A stretch of 64,000 bases of DNA from Tenericutes bacterium HGW-Tenericutes-2 (GTDB lineage: Bacteria; Bacillota_I; Bacilli_A; Acholeplasmatales; Acholeplasmataceae), in contig PGXL01000004.1 of NCBI GenBank assembly GCA_002839095.1, forward strand, positions 62,001-126,000, given 5' to 3'. The notes under the pieces are model-generated. The model had not been told where the DNA came from, searched no databases, and saw only the letters and a list, made by a program, of their open reading frames with translations. Within the stretch, counting starts at the first letter, position 1. Each line of letters begins with the position of its first letter. The position numbers and the translations under genes are program-made. Shown here one piece after another: positions 15,910 to 49,952 of the stretch.

Positions 15910-15931
15910 AATAGTATAAAAAAAGAAAACT

Positions 15932-16040
15932 AAATGTAATTGCCATAGACAGTAGGAGCGAAAGCTTAATTACCTACCGAGGTGAACAATCATAACGATT
16001 ATTCTCTCTTTTGTCTTCGGCATTAGAGAGATTTTATTTT
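15932..16040 (+). ncRNA. Ribosomal protein L10 leader (autoregulatory mRNA element)
   Basis: The stretch TAATTGCCATAGACAGTAGG followed by GAGCGAAAGCTTAATTACC and TACCGAGGTG is the conserved core of the Firmicutes L10 leader, which binds the L10(L12)4 complex. Downstream, TCTCTC (16003-16008) pairs with GAGAGA (16026-16031) around a UUCG-containing region, followed by TTTTATTTT (16032-16040), an attenuator-type terminator. rplJ begins 16 nt later. The element therefore couples L10/L12 synthesis to free protein. Confidence 0.9.
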
Positions 16041-16056
16041 CAGAAGGAGGCATTTC

Positions 16057-40678: not shown

Positions 40679-40697
40679 AGAAGTGGAGGTAATACCT

Positions 40698-41957
40698 ATG
40701 ATACCTGATAATTACATGAAAAGAATTATTGAAACGGAAGTTGAAAATAAAATGAAATATAGTGGAGCAGTAGTTATCGAAGGTCCAAAGTGGACTGGTA
40801 AATCAACAACCGCTGAACTTTATTCTGAAACTATTATTAAATTACAGAATCCTATTACAAAAAAACAGTATCAAACTTTGGTAACCATTTCAAAAGACGA
40901 AGTACTTTCTGGTAAAAAACCGATTTTATTTGATGAATGGCAAGAAGTTCCTGAGATTTGGGATTTTATAAGACTTGATATAGATGATAACAAATATAAA
41001 GGAGCTTATTTACTTACAGGTTCTACAAAAAAACAAAACATTAACATATCTCATACAGGAACTGGAAGAATTAATTCTATATACATGCGTCCTATGAGTT
41101 TATTTGAAAGTGGAGATTCTAGTGGATTAGTTTCGTTAACTGATCTATTTGAAGGTAAAAAAATCAAAGTAGCAAAATCAAAAACAAGTATTAATGACAT
41201 CGCTCACTATATTTGTCGCGGAGGATGGCCAGGTAGTCTAGAATTACCATTAAAAGAACAACTTGCTATTCCCAAAGACTTACTTGAAAGTATTATATCA
41301 AAAGATGTAGATGAAGTTGATGGAACCAAAAAAGACAAAGATAAAATTAGAAAACTCATACGCAGTTATGCAAGAAATATATCCACATTAACAACCAGTA
41401 AAACGATTTATAAAGATCAAGAAAACGAAGGTATTTCTATTGACTATAAAACATATGAAACTTATATCAATGCACTTCAAAGATTATATATTATCGAAAA
41501 CCTTAAAGCTTGGTCTCCAGCCATTAGAAGTGCTAGTACAATCAGAACATCAGATAAAAAGCAATTTGTCGATCCAAGTATTGCTGTAGCTGCTCTGGGT
41601 TTGTCAGTAGATAAACTAAAACAAGACTTTGAAACATTTGGATTCTTTTTTGAATCTATATGTACTAGAGATATCAGAGTCTATGCGCAATCGTTAGATG
41701 GTGAAGTCTATCATTACAATGATTCATCTGGATTAGAAGTGGATTTAATTATTGAGTTGAGAGATGGCAGATGGGCTGGAATTGAAGTTAAATTAGGGGA
41801 AAACGAAGTTGAGAAAGCAGCATCAAATCTTCTAAAAATTGCTAACATTCATAAAACGAAAAAACCTTCATTTTTGATGATACTTACAAACACAGAACTT
41901 TGTTATCAAAGGGAAGATGGTGTTTATGTTATACCGATTGGTTGTCTAAAACACTAA
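40698..41957 (+). CDS. AAA (AAA_14) ATPase with DUF4143 domain
   Basis: A 419-residue protein with EGPKWTGKSTTAEL (Walker A), PILFDEWQEVPEIWDFIR (Walker B with the DEWQ(E) pattern of this family), LTGSTKKQ (sensor 1), and a C-terminal DUF4143 part containing SSGLEVDLIIELRDGRW and GIEVKLGENE, which looks like a PD-(D/E)xK nuclease-type core (Asp, then ExK). Such ATPases are abundant in genomic islands and host-restricted bacteria; their role is unknown, with suggestions of toxin-antitoxin or defence functions. Codon use and position between rpsR and gdpP mark it as accessory. The start is ATG 40698 after GGAGGT. Confidence 0.85.
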   Translation: MIPDNYMKRIIETEVENKMKYSGAVVIEGPKWTGKSTTAELYSETIIKLQNPITKKQYQTLVTISKDEVLSGKKPILFDEWQEVPEIWDFIRLDIDDNKYKGAYLLTGSTKKQNINISHTGTGRINSIYMRPMSLFESGDSSGLVSLTDLFEGKKIKVAKSKTSINDIAHYICRGGWPGSLELPLKEQLAIPKDLLESIISKDVDEVDGTKKDKDKIRKLIRSYARNISTLTTSKTIYKDQENEGISIDYKTYETYINALQRLYIIENLKAWSPAIRSASTIRTSDKKQFVDPSIAVAALGLSVDKLKQDFETFGFFFESICTRDIRVYAQSLDGEVYHYNDSSGLEVDLIIELRDGRWAGIEVKLGENEVEKAASNLLKIANIHKTKKPSFLMILTNTELCYQREDGVYVIPIGCLKH

Positions 41958-42229: not shown

Positions 42230-42363
42230 TTGTGTAATGGATTTGCTAATCCACTAAAAGGTGTAAGAACCGTAGGGACTAAGGGAATAGCCTATTGATA
42301 CGCTGGTGGGTACACCAGTTTGGATAGGAAGCCCCCACTTCTATTAAGTGGTGGGTAGTTCAC
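42230..42363 (+). mobile_element. Orphan right end of an IS200/IS605-family element with omega-RNA-like structure
   Basis: The sequence shows the nested structure typical of IS605 right ends and TnpB guide RNAs: CCTAT (42291-42295) pairs with ATAGG (42324-42328) and encloses the hairpin CTGGTG/CACCAG (42303-42318). A terminal hairpin CCCACTT/AAGTGG-GGG with loop CTATT comes next, followed by GTAGTTCAC ending at 42363. No tnpA or tnpB is present; about 60 nt upstream (TAATGGATTTGCTAATCCA...) may be the former tnpB 3' region. Sequence after TTCAC would be the guide in an active system. Confidence 0.75.
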
Positions 42364-42422: not shown

Positions 42423-44858
42423 GTGAAACGATGGCTTTTTCTCATCATTGCGTCTGTCATATTCATTGTCAGCGTAATTTTATACACACCTTATTTCAAC
42501 TTTGAATCGGGAGCACAGTTTTTCCTTTTACTTCTCATGCTATCTGGCATGATTTTAGTCTTTGCTGCATTTTACATCTCACTGAACTATCAAGCAAGAC
42601 AAAAGGTAAAAACACTTCAAAACAGATTGTCGATGTGGACAAAGTTGTCCTATCACGTCAATCAGGTTGGCGATGAAGTCTTTAATGAATTACCTATAGG
42701 AATTATTGCACTAGATGATGAGTTTGAAATTAAATGGGCAAATCCGCATGCAAAAGCAATTTTTGATGCAAAAATTGCCGGAAAGAATTTAAAGGATGTT
42801 CATCCACAACTGCATTTATCAGCAATGCAAAACAAGATCAATTTTACAATTCAAATTAAAAATGATACCTATGACGTCATATACCGCTCTGAATATAAGT
42901 TTTTCTATATATTCAATGTGACGGAAAGAGAACAGGTTAAACAAAAATATTTAGACCAAATTCCTGCATTAGGAATCGTCTATTTAGATAATTTAGATGA
43001 AGCAATAGGATCTATGGATGTTTCAGAACAATCCTCACTTAAGGGTGAGTATTTAGCTGCAATTGCTGACTGGGCAAATAAGTATGATGGATTTTTAAAG
43101 CCATATGCAGATGAAAGACTAGTCGTTCTTTTATATCGTAAGCAACTGAATTTAATGATTCAAGATAAATTTGATATCCTAGATAAAATTAGATCCATTT
43201 CAACTGCAAACCAGGTGAGAGTATCTATTTCAATGGGTGTAGCTTCATGGGATGTCGATTATGAAGAATTAGGTATATACGCACAAAACGCCGTTGAACT
43301 CGCTGAAAAGCGTGGTGGTGACCAGGTCGTTGTGAATATCCAAGATCAAAAGATTGCATATTTCGGTGCTAAAAATGATGCTGCTGCGAAGAGCTCACGT
43401 GTAGGGGTCAGAATTAACGCTCAAACAATTAAAGACTTTACTGATAAAGCGTCTAACATATTTGTAATGGGACACAATCAAGCAGATTTAGATGCATTTG
43501 GTTCGATGATTGCTGTATACCATATGGCAAAGGTTAGTAAAAAACCTGTATATATGGTAGTCGATGAAGCGAAATTAGATAATACAGTGATTAAGGTTTA
43601 CGAGCTTCTAAAAGAAAAAATGCCTAACTTTACTGAAAATGTAGTTACATCTGATGTAGCAATCACACAAGTCAACGAAGAAAGTTTATTAATCGTTGTT
43701 GACTCTCAGTCACCAAAGATTGTTATGTCACAGGAATTACTGAAAAAAGTAAATAAGCTTATTGTTATCGATCACCATCGAGTTGGTGAGGATACATTTG
43801 ATTCCATATTTAGTTTCATTGAACCATACGCATCCTCAACGATAGAATTAGTTATGGAGCTTTTAAATTTCTATAATACAGAGGAAGTTATTAAAATATC
43901 ACCATTTGAAGCGACCATCATGTATGGTGGGTTAGTGGTAGATACCAATAACTTCAGCTATCGTACAGGTTCAAGAACCTTTGAAGTGGCATCCAAATTA
44001 AAAGATTTAGGTGCTGATATTACGGATGTCAAATTATGGCTACGTAGAGATTTAATGCGTACGCTAGAAATTAATAAATTATTAGGAAACGTCGAAATAT
44101 TTTTAGACCGTTTCGCATTTGTTGTGACATCAGACATTTATGATGATAGAATACTGCTTGCACAGGTTGCAGAAGCATTACTTCAAATCAATGGTATTGA
44201 TGCTGCATTTATGATTTCAAGAATGGGAAATGACAAGGTAGGTATATCTGCTAGATCCTATCAACAAGTTAACGTACAGATTTTGATGGAGGCTTTCGGT
44301 GGTGGTGGGCATTTAAATAGTGCTGCAGCTCAAATCGAGAATCAATCATTATCTGAGGTATATAATCAATTAAAAACATACTTAGAGCTAGAGTATGGTG
44401 GAGGAGGAGAACTCGTGAAAGTTATTTTATTAGAGGATGTTAAAGGCAAAGGTAAGAAAGATGATGTGATTGAGGTTGCATCAGGGTTCGGTCAATTCTT
44501 AGTTACACAAAAGAAGGCAATGTTAGCTACGGATGAAAACATGACAGCATTAAACAAAGCGAAGGAAGAAGCGTTTTTATCTCAACAACGTCATATCGAT
44601 TTAATGAAGAAATTAAAATCAGAGATTGACAATAAGAAAGTGACATTAGGTATTCAAATTGGTCAAGATGGTAAGCTATTCGGTAGTGTAACAACAAAAC
44701 AAATTGTTGAAGCATTCGAAGATGCACATCATATCTTAATCGATAAGAAAAAAGTAGAATTATCGAGTGATATCAATTCTGTAGGTATTTACACCGCTAC
44801 AGTATCCTTACACAAAGACATTAAAGCACTATTTGAAGTCCATATCGTTGAAAAGTAG
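42423..44858 (+). CDS. GdpP-type cyclic-di-AMP phosphodiesterase fused to ribosomal protein L9
   Basis: An 811-residue fusion. Residues 1-60 contain two membrane helices, about 70-170 a PAS-like domain, 170-310 a degenerate GGDEF domain, about 335-490 the DHH phosphoesterase domain (GHNQADLDAFGS, DSQSP, VIDHHRVG), 540-660 DHHA1 with FGGGGHLNSAAAQ. That is the full GdpP layout, which hydrolyses c-di-AMP at the membrane. From residue 665 (VKVILLEDVKGKGKKDD) to the end it is ribosomal protein L9. The two parts are joined by GGGGEL with no stop. Start GTG 42423 follows AGGTGAG. In Bacillus the two genes are adjacent but separate. A membrane protein carrying a ribosomal protein is unlikely to be the only product (see rplI entry). 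Confidence 0.92.
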   Translation: MKRWLFLIIASVIFIVSVILYTPYFNFESGAQFFLLLLMLSGMILVFAAFYISLNYQARQKVKTLQNRLSMWTKLSYHVNQVGDEVFNELPIGIIALDDEFEIKWANPHAKAIFDAKIAGKNLKDVHPQLHLSAMQNKINFTIQIKNDTYDVIYRSEYKFFYIFNVTEREQVKQKYLDQIPALGIVYLDNLDEAIGSMDVSEQSSLKGEYLAAIADWANKYDGFLKPYADERLVVLLYRKQLNLMIQDKFDILDKIRSISTANQVRVSISMGVASWDVDYEELGIYAQNAVELAEKRGGDQVVVNIQDQKIAYFGAKNDAAAKSSRVGVRINAQTIKDFTDKASNIFVMGHNQADLDAFGSMIAVYHMAKVSKKPVYMVVDEAKLDNTVIKVYELLKEKMPNFTENVVTSDVAITQVNEESLLIVVDSQSPKIVMSQELLKKVNKLIVIDHHRVGEDTFDSIFSFIEPYASSTIELVMELLNFYNTEEVIKISPFEATIMYGGLVVDTNNFSYRTGSRTFEVASKLKDLGADITDVKLWLRRDLMRTLEINKLLGNVEIFLDRFAFVVTSDIYDDRILLAQVAEALLQINGIDAAFMISRMGNDKVGISARSYQQVNVQILMEAFGGGGHLNSAAAQIENQSLSEVYNQLKTYLELEYGGGGELVKVILLEDVKGKGKKDDVIEVASGFGQFLVTQKKAMLATDENMTALNKAKEEAFLSQQRHIDLMKKLKSEIDNKKVTLGIQIGQDGKLFGSVTTKQIVEAFEDAHHILIDKKKVELSSDINSVGIYTATVSLHKDIKALFEVHIVEK
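44415..44858 (+). CDS. rplI: 50S ribosomal protein L9 (internal in-frame start within the fusion)
   Basis: GTG 44415 is preceded at a 7-nt distance by GGAGGAGG (44400-44407), the best ribosome site in the region, and begins exactly at the L9 N-terminus. The 147-residue product has the N-terminal rRNA-binding domain (VASGFGQFLVTQKKA), the long connecting helix and the C-terminal domain ending at EVHIVEK, matching a full-length L9. I infer that most L9 is made from this internal start and that the fused 811-residue protein is made from the upstream GTG of the same mRNA. Confidence 0.8.
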   Translation: MKVILLEDVKGKGKKDDVIEVASGFGQFLVTQKKAMLATDENMTALNKAKEEAFLSQQRHIDLMKKLKSEIDNKKVTLGIQIGQDGKLFGSVTTKQIVEAFEDAHHILIDKKKVELSSDINSVGIYTATVSLHKDIKALFEVHIVEK

Positions 44859-46449: not shown

Positions 46450-47808
46450 TTGGTATGGAAATTAAACACTTGGAAGGATCAATTAACGAAAATAGAATAC
46501 TATGTTAATGGAACACTGAGTTATACACAAACTCTTTCCTATGATTCAAGTGGAAATGTAACTTCAATCCTAGACACTCGCTCAAGCTATTTGACTATTA
46601 ACTTTGAATGGAATGGAAGGGATTTGACTAGAAGACAACAATACTCCTCTATAACTCAAATGAAATATGATGATCAAGGCATAAGAACCTATAAAAATTC
46701 AGGAGGAGTTACAACTACATATACATTAAATGGATATCTAGTTCTTCTTGAGAAGATAGGAACTATCACAATTTATTACACTTATGATCAACAAGGTGCA
46801 TTACTCAGTATGAACTACAATGGCACAGAGTTTTTCTATATTACAAATTTACAGGGTGATATCATAGAAATGGTAGACATCAATGGCAATACTGTGGTTA
46901 AATATAGATATGATGCATGGGGGAATATCATCTATTCATGGTATGATACCGGATTAGGATACAATTTAGCAACAATCAATCCATATCGATATCGCGGATA
47001 TCGTTATGATAATGATTTAAAGCTTTATTATTTACAGTCAAGATATTATGATCCTTCAATTGGGAGATTCATTAATGCGGACTCTGTGAATTATTTAGAT
47101 CCTAGTGGATATACAGGATTGAACTTATATGCTTATTGTGGAAACAATCCAGTCATGTTTACAGACAGCACTGGACATGCACGTGAATACTGGTATATTG
47201 CAGTAGGCTTAGTTGCTGTATTAGCAATTGCAACTGTGATTACATGTGGTGGTGCTGGAGTTGCTTTTGCTGCGATTGGATATGCTTCCCAGGGAATCAC
47301 ATTGGTTGGATTATCTACCACTGCAACTGTGTTTGCATACGCAACTGCTGGATCAGCAGGAGCTCTTGCTGCAGTAGGAATGTTTTCTGCAATGTCATCT
47401 TCATCAATCGAAGAGTTTGATGATTCTGGTGGTATTGCCCTAGCAATGACTGCTACTGGCGGCCTTGTAGGTGGTTATATTGGATATCTTGCAACAAGAC
47501 CAAGCTTTTATAGAGCAATGTCAGCTGCAGAGGTTCAAGCAGTTAAAGATAGTGGATATTTGCGTGGAGGTAAAGAGGGACAGACATTCTTCACCAATAC
47601 ACCGTATTATTCCTCCGGGACTGCTCAATCTCATTTATCGTTGCCTACATCACCTGATTATATGATGCAGTTTAGAATATCAAATAATCCAAATATTTAT
47701 GGACCTCAAACTGTTAGATCTATATATGGATATAATGGCGGTGGAGTCGAGTTCTATACGTATGATCGCGTTAAAGTCATTATCGAGAGTATCTGGAGAT
47801 TGAAGTAA
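46450..47808 (+). CDS. RHS-repeat protein with C-terminal toxin-like domain (5'-truncated)
   Basis: The frame is open from 46378 but has no good start; TTG 46450 is the first candidate and has no ribosome site, so this is probably the 3' end of a larger RHS gene. Residues 1-180 hold YD/RHS repeats (YDSSGNVTSI, YRYDAWGNIIYSW). Residues 180-242 are the RHS core, YRYRGYRYD..., RYYDPSIGRFINADS and YAYCGNNPVM. Residues 245-345 are hydrophobic, as in pretoxin regions. The tail (352-452) has SFYRAMSAAEV (Arg355), TFFTNT and GGGVEFYTYD (Glu434), an R-[ST]-E-like order of an ADP-ribosyltransferase toxin; that is a weak inference. A likely immunity gene follows 14 nt later. Confidence 0.8.
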   Translation: MVWKLNTWKDQLTKIEYYVNGTLSYTQTLSYDSSGNVTSILDTRSSYLTINFEWNGRDLTRRQQYSSITQMKYDDQGIRTYKNSGGVTTTYTLNGYLVLLEKIGTITIYYTYDQQGALLSMNYNGTEFFYITNLQGDIIEMVDINGNTVVKYRYDAWGNIIYSWYDTGLGYNLATINPYRYRGYRYDNDLKLYYLQSRYYDPSIGRFINADSVNYLDPSGYTGLNLYAYCGNNPVMFTDSTGHAREYWYIAVGLVAVLAIATVITCGGAGVAFAAIGYASQGITLVGLSTTATVFAYATAGSAGALAAVGMFSAMSSSSIEEFDDSGGIALAMTATGGLVGGYIGYLATRPSFYRAMSAAEVQAVKDSGYLRGGKEGQTFFTNTPYYSSGTAQSHLSLPTSPDYMMQFRISNNPNIYGPQTVRSIYGYNGGGVEFYTYDRVKVIIESIWRLK

Positions 47809-47822
47809 AGGAAGGTATTTAA

Positions 47823-48122
47823 ATGAGAACACCAAAAATTATAATCTCAGAACCATGGGATTTTATAAATCCAAGAACTAATGATAATTCAATGACCTTT
47901 TCACACAAAAAACAGGTTGAATACAAAGGCACAAAAGTTGATCTTGTTAGATTAGTAAAACCATTTGAATACCTGGGACAACAAGTTGAAATTCTAATTT
48001 TGGTACCTAGATATCAAAAAAAGAATAACAAGACATTCAATATATTAATCGTTGATGAAGATACATCCGATAACGTAATTGACAATGCAAAATATATGTT
48101 TATTGGTTCTCTTGAACCCTAA
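47823..48122 (+). CDS. Probable immunity protein for the first RHS toxin tip
   Basis: A 99-residue cytoplasmic protein starting MRTPKIIISEPWDFINP, mixed alpha/beta, rich in charged residues. No family recognised. A small soluble gene directly after a toxin tip (14 nt, GGAAGG ribosome site) is the standard place for a cognate immunity gene in polymorphic toxin loci. Role inferred from position only. Confidence 0.6.
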   Translation: MRTPKIIISEPWDFINPRTNDNSMTFSHKKQVEYKGTKVDLVRLVKPFEYLGQQVEILILVPRYQKKNNKTFNILIVDEDTSDNVIDNAKYMFIGSLEP

Positions 48123-48187
48123 TTCAATTACAAAGGTTTTTGACAAGGACAAATCAAACATGTGAATCGATCACCCCAAATATATAA

Positions 48188-48820
48188 ATGAAGTCAAGAA
48201 ACCCAGTGCATAAATGTTTATACACTTTCTCAATATTTGTCATGCTTATGTCTGACTACATTACTCCAGTCATGCATATTGATCTAACTGGGGAATCATT
48301 GCTACTTATATTAGGTGCTATATTTATAGGTGGACTGATGGGTGGAACTGCTTGTTTATTTAGTAAAGCTGATAGTGAAGATCCATGGGGAGCATTCTTT
48401 GGAGGCTTTATCAATGGTGCAATAAATACTGCAGGTTTAGCAGCTGCAATAGCAACAGGTGGTATGTGGGGATTAGCAATAGCAGCTGGAAGTGGATTTG
48501 TCGGTGGTTTTTTAGGAAATACTGCCAATCAATTTATATCATATGATAATTTTAGTTTTGGATTGGCATTAACAAGCGGAGGTGTATCCGCAGCTTATAA
48601 TATGATTATCTTTGGTGGTTATATTCTCTCTGGTATAGGTGTATACGGAACATGGGGAGAAAGATTTATCCAAGCAATAGTTTCAAGCATATTTTCAGTC
48701 GCTGCGCAAGGTTACATCGGTGGTGTTATGATTAATCCAATTAGATTTTGGGAGAAAAGAAATAGTTTTTCATCTGTTAAGCAAGACAACGCTGGTATGA
48801 ATATATTACTATGGAGATAG
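48188..48820 (+). CDS. Orphan RHS C-terminal tip with hydrophobic region
   Basis: A 210-residue protein. Residues 20-36 (YITPVMHIDLTGE) correspond to the end of an RHS core (NNPVMxxDPSG), and residues 36-180 are Gly/Ala-rich hydrophobic segments like the membrane-active pretoxin region of RHS proteins. The C-terminus is short and shows no known toxin motif, so the toxin part may be lost or the hydrophobic domain itself may act on membranes. No RHS repeats precede it, so it is a displaced cassette. The ATG has no good ribosome site. Confidence 0.6.
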   Translation: MKSRNPVHKCLYTFSIFVMLMSDYITPVMHIDLTGESLLLILGAIFIGGLMGGTACLFSKADSEDPWGAFFGGFINGAINTAGLAAAIATGGMWGLAIAAGSGFVGGFLGNTANQFISYDNFSFGLALTSGGVSAAYNMIIFGGYILSGIGVYGTWGERFIQAIVSSIFSVAAQGYIGGVMINPIRFWEKRNSFSSVKQDNAGMNILLWR

Positions 48821-48824
48821 AAAA

Positions 48825-49280
48825 ATGAAGAAGGTAAAATTCAGAATCTTAATATACGTGCCAATATTTACATTTTCACTATTACTTATATCGGTATTTA
48901 CTTTAATATTGATCTCACCTTACCTAAACAATGATGAATCAATAGCGGTTAAAATGGCATCAGTTTTTTCTCTTACTATAATTCCATTAACATTATTTAT
49001 GTATACTTTCTTTACTATGTGGCCAAGTGTGGAGTTTAGTGGAAATGGAATAGAGAAAACATTGTTGGGAAAAAAACAAAGGTTTATTTCTTGGGATGAT
49101 GTATATGAGATAAAAAGAATCAAAACAGGAATTGCAGAGTGGTTGTTTTTCTCTAAAGTGAGTTTGGAGGGGAAAACAATTGACAAATGCAGAAATAGAA
49201 AAGACAACATTTTTATAGTGAGCACCAAAGAAATTGAAGAAGTGATTGAACATTTCGCACCTAATAGACTATTGAAATAA
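48825..49280 (+). CDS. Membrane protein with two helices, possible immunity protein
   Basis: A 151-residue protein with two N-terminal membrane helices (about residues 8-32 and 43-67) and a soluble C-terminal domain (VEFSGNGIEKTLLGKKQRF, SWDDVYEIKR) resembling the PH-like domains of small bacterial membrane proteins. It is four bases after the orphan tip, the usual immunity position; if that tip attacks membranes, a membrane immunity protein would fit. No specific family recognised. Confidence 0.65.
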   Translation: MKKVKFRILIYVPIFTFSLLLISVFTLILISPYLNNDESIAVKMASVFSLTIIPLTLFMYTFFTMWPSVEFSGNGIEKTLLGKKQRFISWDDVYEIKRIKTGIAEWLFFSKVSLEGKTIDKCRNRKDNIFIVSTKEIEEVIEHFAPNRLLK

Positions 49281-49406
49281 TTCATTTCAATATTTATTAA
49301 GTGTAAAAAACCAACTACATGGATTCATCTCATAAGCTTTTTAACTGTAATATACAATAGTTGGTATGCAGGACTTGATATTATTGCTTATTGTGGAAAC
49401 AATCCA

Positions 49407-49952
49407 GTGATGTACTCTGACCCCAGCGGCAATTTTGCGATATCACTAACTGTGCTGGGATTGATTATTGGTGCAGTCGTTGGTGCAGCAGCAGGAGGTA
49501 TAGTCGCTTACAATATAGCAAAAGATCATGGTGAAGAAGGTTGGGATCTTGTTGGATGGACTGTATTAGGTATTTTTGGTGGTGGAATAATAGGTGGTGC
49601 CCTTGGTGCTGGTGCAGGGGCACTAGTAACACATTTTACTGGAATAACAGGACTATCTGTTACGAAATACAGTATAGCATTCACTCACAAGGTCACAGTA
49701 TTAGGACATATGCCGGGATATATTGGTGCAGCTAAAGCAACTGGATCAGGATATTATTTAATCTCTGAGAAATTATATCAAAGTCTTACCCCTGTAGAAA
49801 GATGGGCAAGCAATCTTCAGTATTTGAAAGATGCTCATACATTAGGAACCCAGTTTGTAGTTGCACCAGATTATGTGGTTCGTGCAGGTGGAACATTATG
49901 GCAAGAGATTCAGTATTTAATTGAACAAGGGATAGCTTGGATTTTTGGGTAA
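49407..49952 (+). CDS. Second orphan RHS C-terminal tip with toxin-like domain
   Basis: The frame is open from 49281 and reads YNSWYAGLDIIAYCGNNPVM... before the possible GTG start at 49407, so this is the terminal piece of an RHS core (AYCGNNPVMYSDPSG) without its repeats. A Gly-rich hydrophobic part (residues 7-75) follows. The last 90 residues (VTVLGHMPGYIGAAKATG..., ERWASNLQYL, GTQFVVAPDYV) resemble a common RHS/Wap toxin domain whose members begin VLGxxPxY; its activity is not known to me. The next gene is small and likely immunity. Confidence 0.65.
   Translation: MMYSDPSGNFAISLTVLGLIIGAVVGAAAGGIVAYNIAKDHGEEGWDLVGWTVLGIFGGGIIGGALGAGAGALVTHFTGITGLSVTKYSIAFTHKVTVLGHMPGYIGAAKATGSGYYLISEKLYQSLTPVERWASNLQYLKDAHTLGTQFVVAPDYVVRAGGTLWQEIQYLIEQGIAWIFG

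Follow-up and report, generated by a model that had tools for sequence, protein, structure and literature searches.

In the 64,000-nucleotide window analyzed here, from contig PGXL01000004.1 of Tenericutes bacterium HGW-Tenericutes-2, one gene very probably yields two proteins: a fusion of the predicted c-di-AMP phosphodiesterase GdpP with ribosomal protein L9, and free L9 made from an internal start. Ribosomes starting at position 42423 would make an 811-amino acid membrane GdpP with L9 as its last domain, there being no stop between the gdpP and L9 parts. Other ribosomes would start at 44415, by way of the former rplI ribosome-binding site, whose letters now also code for the linker, and make a free L9 of 147 amino acids; the comparative evidence for this step is strong. 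The fused L9 domain would itself be retained by selection.

The fused gdpP-rplI gene occupies positions 42423..44858 (+) as a single ORF of 811 codons, with a GTG start, a TAG stop and no internal stops. Its product matches the NCBIfam profile NF011110 with 1019.7 bits (cut-off 707; profile positions 53-835 of 838), and its domains run in the order TM–PAS–GGDEF–DHH–DHHA1, then L9. Sequence and AlphaFold2 secondary structure predict an N-terminal membrane anchor of two helices (residues 5-24 and 30-86; 42423..42680, +), which are hydrophobic as in GdpP and suggest a membrane location. PAS_GdpP (residues 79-166; PF21370) and a degenerate GGDEF_GdpP (186-310; PF24898) together span 42657..43352 (+), and the DHH (345-503; PF01368) and DHHA1 (575-653; PF02272) phosphodiesterase domains span 43455..44381 (+). 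The DHH and GGGGH motifs are intact, and residues H351, D355, D357, D427, D450-H451-H452, G627-G629 and H630 are invariant in an alignment of 17 fusions. In its domains and catalytic residues the GdpP part is that of a c-di-AMP phosphodiesterase, and this activity is predicted for it.

The rplI part (44415..44858, +) encodes a bL9 domain of 147 amino acids. Both of its halves are intact (Ribosomal_L9_N, PF01281, residues 665-708; Ribosomal_L9_C, PF03948, residues 728-810), and TIGR00158 is matched with 107.7 bits against a cut-off of 58.6, residue 665 falling on profile position 1. The top PDB match of the domain is ribosomal protein L9 (1div, 2.3e-28). With complete N and C domains scoring above the cut-off, it is predicted to be a full bL9, and a search of the genome to which the window belongs found no second L9 gene elsewhere. 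An AlphaFold2 model of the fused protein (mean pLDDT 82.5; pTM 0.42, so that domain placement is uncertain) shows the N-terminal pair of helices and, as expected, the GdpP domains, followed by the last DHHA1 helix at 643-658, a loop at 659-663 and a first L9 strand at 664-669. The modelled linker between GdpP and L9 is short.

This linker, GGGGEL (residues 659-664; 44397..44414, +), connects the final helix of DHHA1 with the strand that opens L9, in sequence and model alike. The junction codons TAT GGT GGA GGA GGA GAA CTC GTG AAA are read Y-G-G-G-G-E-L-V-K, and the same letters carry a candidate Shine-Dalgarno sequence for L9, GGAGGAGGAG, at 44400..44409 (+). Its AGGAGG core ends 7 nucleotides upstream of the internal start codon, a GTG at 44415..44417 (+) that is both codon 1 of L9 and Val665 of the fusion. 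A first-pass annotation, made from the letters alone, had described the missing stop between GdpP and L9 and the presence of GGAGGAGGAG and a GTG at the exact L9 start, translated as GGGGEL; the ORF and the TIGR00158 match from residue 665 agree with this anatomy in every detail. The duplex energy of the site with the anti-Shine-Dalgarno sequence ACCUCCUUU is -11.7 kcal/mol, the strongest among the 36 in-frame ATG, GTG and TTG codons of the ORF and a value reached by 8 of 2151 plus-strand ATG or GTG codons in the window. The start of gdpP itself has -6.1, and the higher rank of the internal site would favor free L9 over the fusion in amount. Since no 16S match was found in the window's own assembly, the anti-Shine-Dalgarno sequence (GGATCACCTCCTTTCT) was taken from the 16S of five relatives, in which it is present. 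RNA structure at the internal site is not unusual (z -1.3), and a search of the gene for an internal promoter or terminator for L9 gave no signal above shuffles.

The same fusion, in one frame, is found in complete genomes, such as those of Onion yellows phytoplasma OY-M and 'Ca. Phytoplasma mali', as well as at every order-level junction read, and is therefore not a sequencing error. Of 88 genomes in the window's family, 80 score above the fusion cut-off, the remainder being mostly fragments, as do 139 of 150 in its order. Within the class the fusion occurs in five more families (f9, f16, f19, f23 and f24; 59 genomes by our count), where it forms one frame yet scores below the curated NF011110 cut-off. 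At least ten family-level groups, among wall-less bacteria and relatives of these, carry it, phytoplasmas and acholeplasmas included. Separate gdpP and rplI genes are found in Bacillaceae, lactobacilli, Lachnospiraceae, Haloplasmataceae and 'Ca. Bathyoplasma'. On a quick GdpP tree of 72 rows the fused or separate label changes once (branch support 85 SH-aLRT), and the nearest lineage with separate genes is f7, comprising 'Ca. Bathyoplasma' and a relative. The fusion is thereby shown, on the tree used, to have arisen once, in a clade much wider than Acholeplasmataceae. The mention in the first-pass annotation of fused entries in Acholeplasmataceae was correct, but the fusion is not specific to that family. 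None of the 181 fused junctions read has regained a stop at the GdpP/L9 boundary. For roughly a dozen genomes an HMM search flagged '1 TAG', which we considered as repeated re-fissions and rejected, the junctions being free of stops; the flagged TAG is most likely the terminal stop.

In Bacillota the gene for GdpP (YybT) is reported to be co-transcribed with the L9 gene, in a gdpP-rplI-dnaC operon (PMC5575661; PMC3711813). The domains and gene order of that operon are those of the window's locus, but its stops and starts are separate, often overlapping, whereas in the window's gene the boundary is gone. In Bacillaceae with separate genes the rplI Shine-Dalgarno lies inside the last gdpP codons (...EYLEGG...) and the stop and start overlap as ATGA; one example (L302) reads GAA TAT TTA GAA GGA GGA CAA AGT GAA TGA, or Glu-Tyr-Leu-Glu-Gly-Gly-Gln-Ser-Glu-stop. 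An in-frame stop stands just 5' of the rplI ATG in Sporolactobacillus (...TCC TAA ATG) and in 'Ca. Bathyoplasma' (...GGA TAA AAA ATG). The comparison shows that the fusion originated from such an operon, with the rplI Shine-Dalgarno already within or beside the end of gdpP; we infer that loss of the stop or a small indel (one base at an overlap) then removed the boundary without disturbing the rplI site. GGGGEL would accordingly be what was once the C-terminal peptide of gdpP, already shaped by the ribosome site. The earlier description of a ribosome site read as a linker is accordingly right in that the same letters encode GGGGEL, but the linker probably did not arise de novo, the Bacillaceae Shine-Dalgarno being already inside the end of gdpP.

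Conservation of the internal start among relatives provides much of the case for free L9. Codon 1 of L9 is ATG in 158, GTG in 22 and ACT in 1 of the 181 fused junctions. The 22 GTG cases are spread over several separate places (g1 and g10, G009, G020 and G150), and valine at this position is always encoded by GTG, a codon that accounts for no more than 2-25% of the valine codons of these genes. Over 149 single-L9, non-phytoplasma fused genes, the mean anti-Shine-Dalgarno energy at the L9 site is -9.34 kcal/mol, compared with -7.09 for synonymous recodings that use each gene's own codon usage and -1.14 at 2665 other ATGs within these genes. The L9 site is also stronger than the start of the next gene in the same loci (-6.24). 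Because the recodings themselves average -7.09, the linker peptide favors a Shine-Dalgarno, and part of the signal could be peptide-driven. The Shine-Dalgarno exceeds synonymous recoding in 46 of 50 genera (binomial p 2e-10, the genera being not fully independent) and fails to do so in 4. The motif is, moreover, kept through changes of both peptide and codon phase, as GGA-GGA-GAA in f1 and AAG-GAG-GAA in f24, while the linker peptide varies between families (YGGGGEL, YGGDNTP, VDLGDGK, TYKEETT). By these comparisons of sequence, selection on the internal site is shown: start codon and Shine-Dalgarno are kept beyond the needs of the protein.

If the fusion protein alone were made, with L9 acting as the tail of a membrane GdpP and GGAGGAGG as a mere glycine linker, the frame would be open, the linker could well be glycine-rich, as it is in f1, and each genome would have one L9, all of which is seen. 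We nevertheless regard this as very improbable, since it accounts neither for a valine that is always GTG nor for a Shine-Dalgarno that exceeds synonymous recoding and persists through changes of linker peptide and codon phase. Every L9-bearing ribosome would, in addition, have to carry a membrane GdpP of its own. Free L9 might instead be cut from the fusion by a protease acting at the linker, with no internal initiation, in keeping with the flexible, glycine-rich linker of some families and the short loop at 659-663 in the model. Between families, however, it is the ribosome-binding site and start codon that stay conserved while the linker peptide changes, and the always-GTG valine is left unexplained, so that we give cleavage just as little credence.

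The L9 site of phytoplasmas has a mean of -5.33 kcal/mol and is, here too, stronger than the start of the next gene (-1.59); its Shine-Dalgarno sequences are weak, however, and exceed recoding only slightly (-0.34). As a separate observation, the starts of the next genes in the phytoplasma loci L002-L038 (genus g11) are nearly without Shine-Dalgarno (mean -1.59, compared with -5.33 at the L9 site), and the 16S tail is intact; this suggests reduced Shine-Dalgarno use in phytoplasmas.

Duplicated lineages serve as natural knock-outs of the internal site. In G089 and G143 (genus g17; loci L154 and L155), a separate rplI, with AAAGGAG before its ATG, lies directly 3' of the fused gene, and the fused copy has kept the ATG but lost the Shine-Dalgarno (ATCGATAAGACTACTGCAACA ATG, -0.4 kcal/mol). 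In G342, G413 and G414 (genus g85, of another family; loci L232, L244 and L246), a separate rplI is likewise found downstream, and the fused copy has neither Shine-Dalgarno nor start codon, codon 1 being Thr or Phe. Fused and free copies are sisters within their own genus on the L9 tree (support 97/87 and 82/80), which indicates two independent tandem duplications. Single-L9 members of both families retain the start codon. The internal site is thus lost in all five duplicated genomes, which amount to only two evolutionary events, as against a start codon kept in every single-L9 fused junction read. This tie between site loss and a separate rplI is the strongest evidence that the site serves to make free L9, and a fusion made as the sole product would not predict that Shine-Dalgarno or start be lost exactly there. 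The retention of the internal start, which the first-pass annotation had proposed along with a check of ribosome-site conservation in relatives, is therefore borne out on three counts: an ATG or GTG at codon 1 in 180 of 181 junctions, the excess over recoding in 46 of 50 genera, and the loss in duplicated lineages.

The other fused genomes searched have one L9, apart from G054, in which the entire fusion is present twice, and from genomes with split fragments. Two apparent second L9 genes were rejected on these grounds: in G153 a single gene seems to be divided between the ends of contigs, and in G295 the extra match is a 29-amino acid fragment. The 97% complete genome G230, of genus g85, gave no L9 match and only a weak GdpP match.

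What the fused L9 domain does can be approached through the five fused-only copies, all of which remain open frames where a separate L9 exists. For the pair G089/G143, dN/dS is 0.11 in fused-only L9 and 0.13 in the free copies, and for G413/G414 it is 0.32 and 0.16; the values for the distant pair G342/G414 (fused 0.90, free 0.42) are hard to interpret. With no regained stop, an open fused-only frame and purifying selection in the close pairs, the fused tail seems to have a function of its own. The fusion might still be a neutral accident, with free L9 doing all the work and the fused tail just tolerated, and in Sporolactobacillus and 'Ca. Bathyoplasma' the boundary is indeed one mutation from fusion. 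This we think quite unlikely, given a single origin, the absence of a regained stop from 181 junctions, with linker codons such as GGA and GAA one change from a stop, and a tail that stays open beside a separate L9 and evolves under purifying selection in close pairs.

Four positions, G688, Y/F689, F/Y692 and G754, are conserved at 97-100% in 77 separate and 175 dual-use L9 sequences and are lost in all five fused-only copies, in two independent lineages. The paired free copies retain G688, Y689 and G754, and the hydrophobic core is mostly kept in fused-only and free copies alike. From structural work on L9, we take the N-domain motif to face the rRNA side. Because the fused-only copies do without residues of ribosomal L9, canonical ribosome docking is unlikely to be the essential job of the fused domain. 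In single-L9 genomes the four positions would be held by the needs of free L9. That the fused L9 docks in ribosomes, bringing them to, or sensing them at, the membrane beside GdpP, would be compatible with two products and would suit an L9 domain that is intact and ribosomal-like in single-L9 genomes and a fusion kept across the clade. The loss of the four positions from five copies in two lineages and the shortness of the modelled linker speak against docking, which we hold to be doubtful; the coupling of c-di-AMP signalling to membrane ribosomes that had been proposed at first pass is, with conserved ribosomal residues lost from fused-only L9, less well supported than the two products. Most likely, although on a weaker footing than the internal start, the fused L9 serves GdpP as a structural or regulatory domain at its C terminus and is not a canonical ribosomal component. 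The fuller reading is that L9 became a non-ribosomal domain of GdpP while the same codons, internally started, supply the ribosome, and that these roles were split in two duplicated lineages whose fused copies convergently shed ribosomal-L9 residues; its chances appear to us about even.

Annotators already recognize the fusion itself through the NCBIfam equivalog NF011110 (PRK14538), 'putative bifunctional signaling protein/50S ribosomal protein L9', which has the same full-length architecture as the window's gene. That name describes one bifunctional protein and is silent on the internal start, its conservation, the single origin and the role-splitting lineages. A full-text search of open-licence literature found no paper describing the GdpP–L9 fusion or an internal start in it. 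PMC4014445 states that it marks fusions in a supplementary table; neither the M. bovis GdpP paper nor the A. laidlawii proteome paper speaks of this one in its main text. With ordinary ribosomal bL9 (TIGR00158; PDB 1div) the window's L9 shares full N and C domains and a length of 147 amino acids, but it begins mid-gene and shows some motif drift, such as N to Q at residue 691. Functional in-frame internal starts in bacterial genes are reported for SpaO (PMC13059759) and for N-terminal proteoforms (PMC11005335). One mRNA there gives a long and a C-terminal short product, as in the model proposed here, whereas here a complete ribosomal protein would be the short product, and two proteins unrelated to each other are joined in the long one.

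If the two-product model is true, a core ribosomal protein is encoded inside a signalling enzyme throughout a clade that includes phytoplasmas and acholeplasmas, and a ribosome-binding site serves at the same time as a linker. As only the long product is named by the database family, annotated proteomes may lack free L9. The two duplicated lineages act as controls already at hand that suggest a need for both products, and their fused-only copies offer a direct route to what L9 does for GdpP.

The fused gene precedes dnaB, and rpsF, ssb and rpsR lie upstream. Between rpsR and gdpP, reading alone reveals an AAA-ATPase/DUF4143-like ORF (40683-41957), probably an insertion in the usual cluster. 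The stretch just upstream of gdpP (42240-42360) has what we take to be a resemblance to an IS605/IS607-type right end (AAGCCCCCACTTCTATTAAGTGGTGGGTAGTTCAC). After dnaB, positions 46450-49952 contain, also by reading, RHS/YD-repeat core fragments, variable C-terminal ends and small ORFs, an arrangement resembling a polymorphic-toxin array. Elsewhere in the window, a ribosomal protein L10 leader was found at 15925-16046 (RF00557, 69.9 bits).
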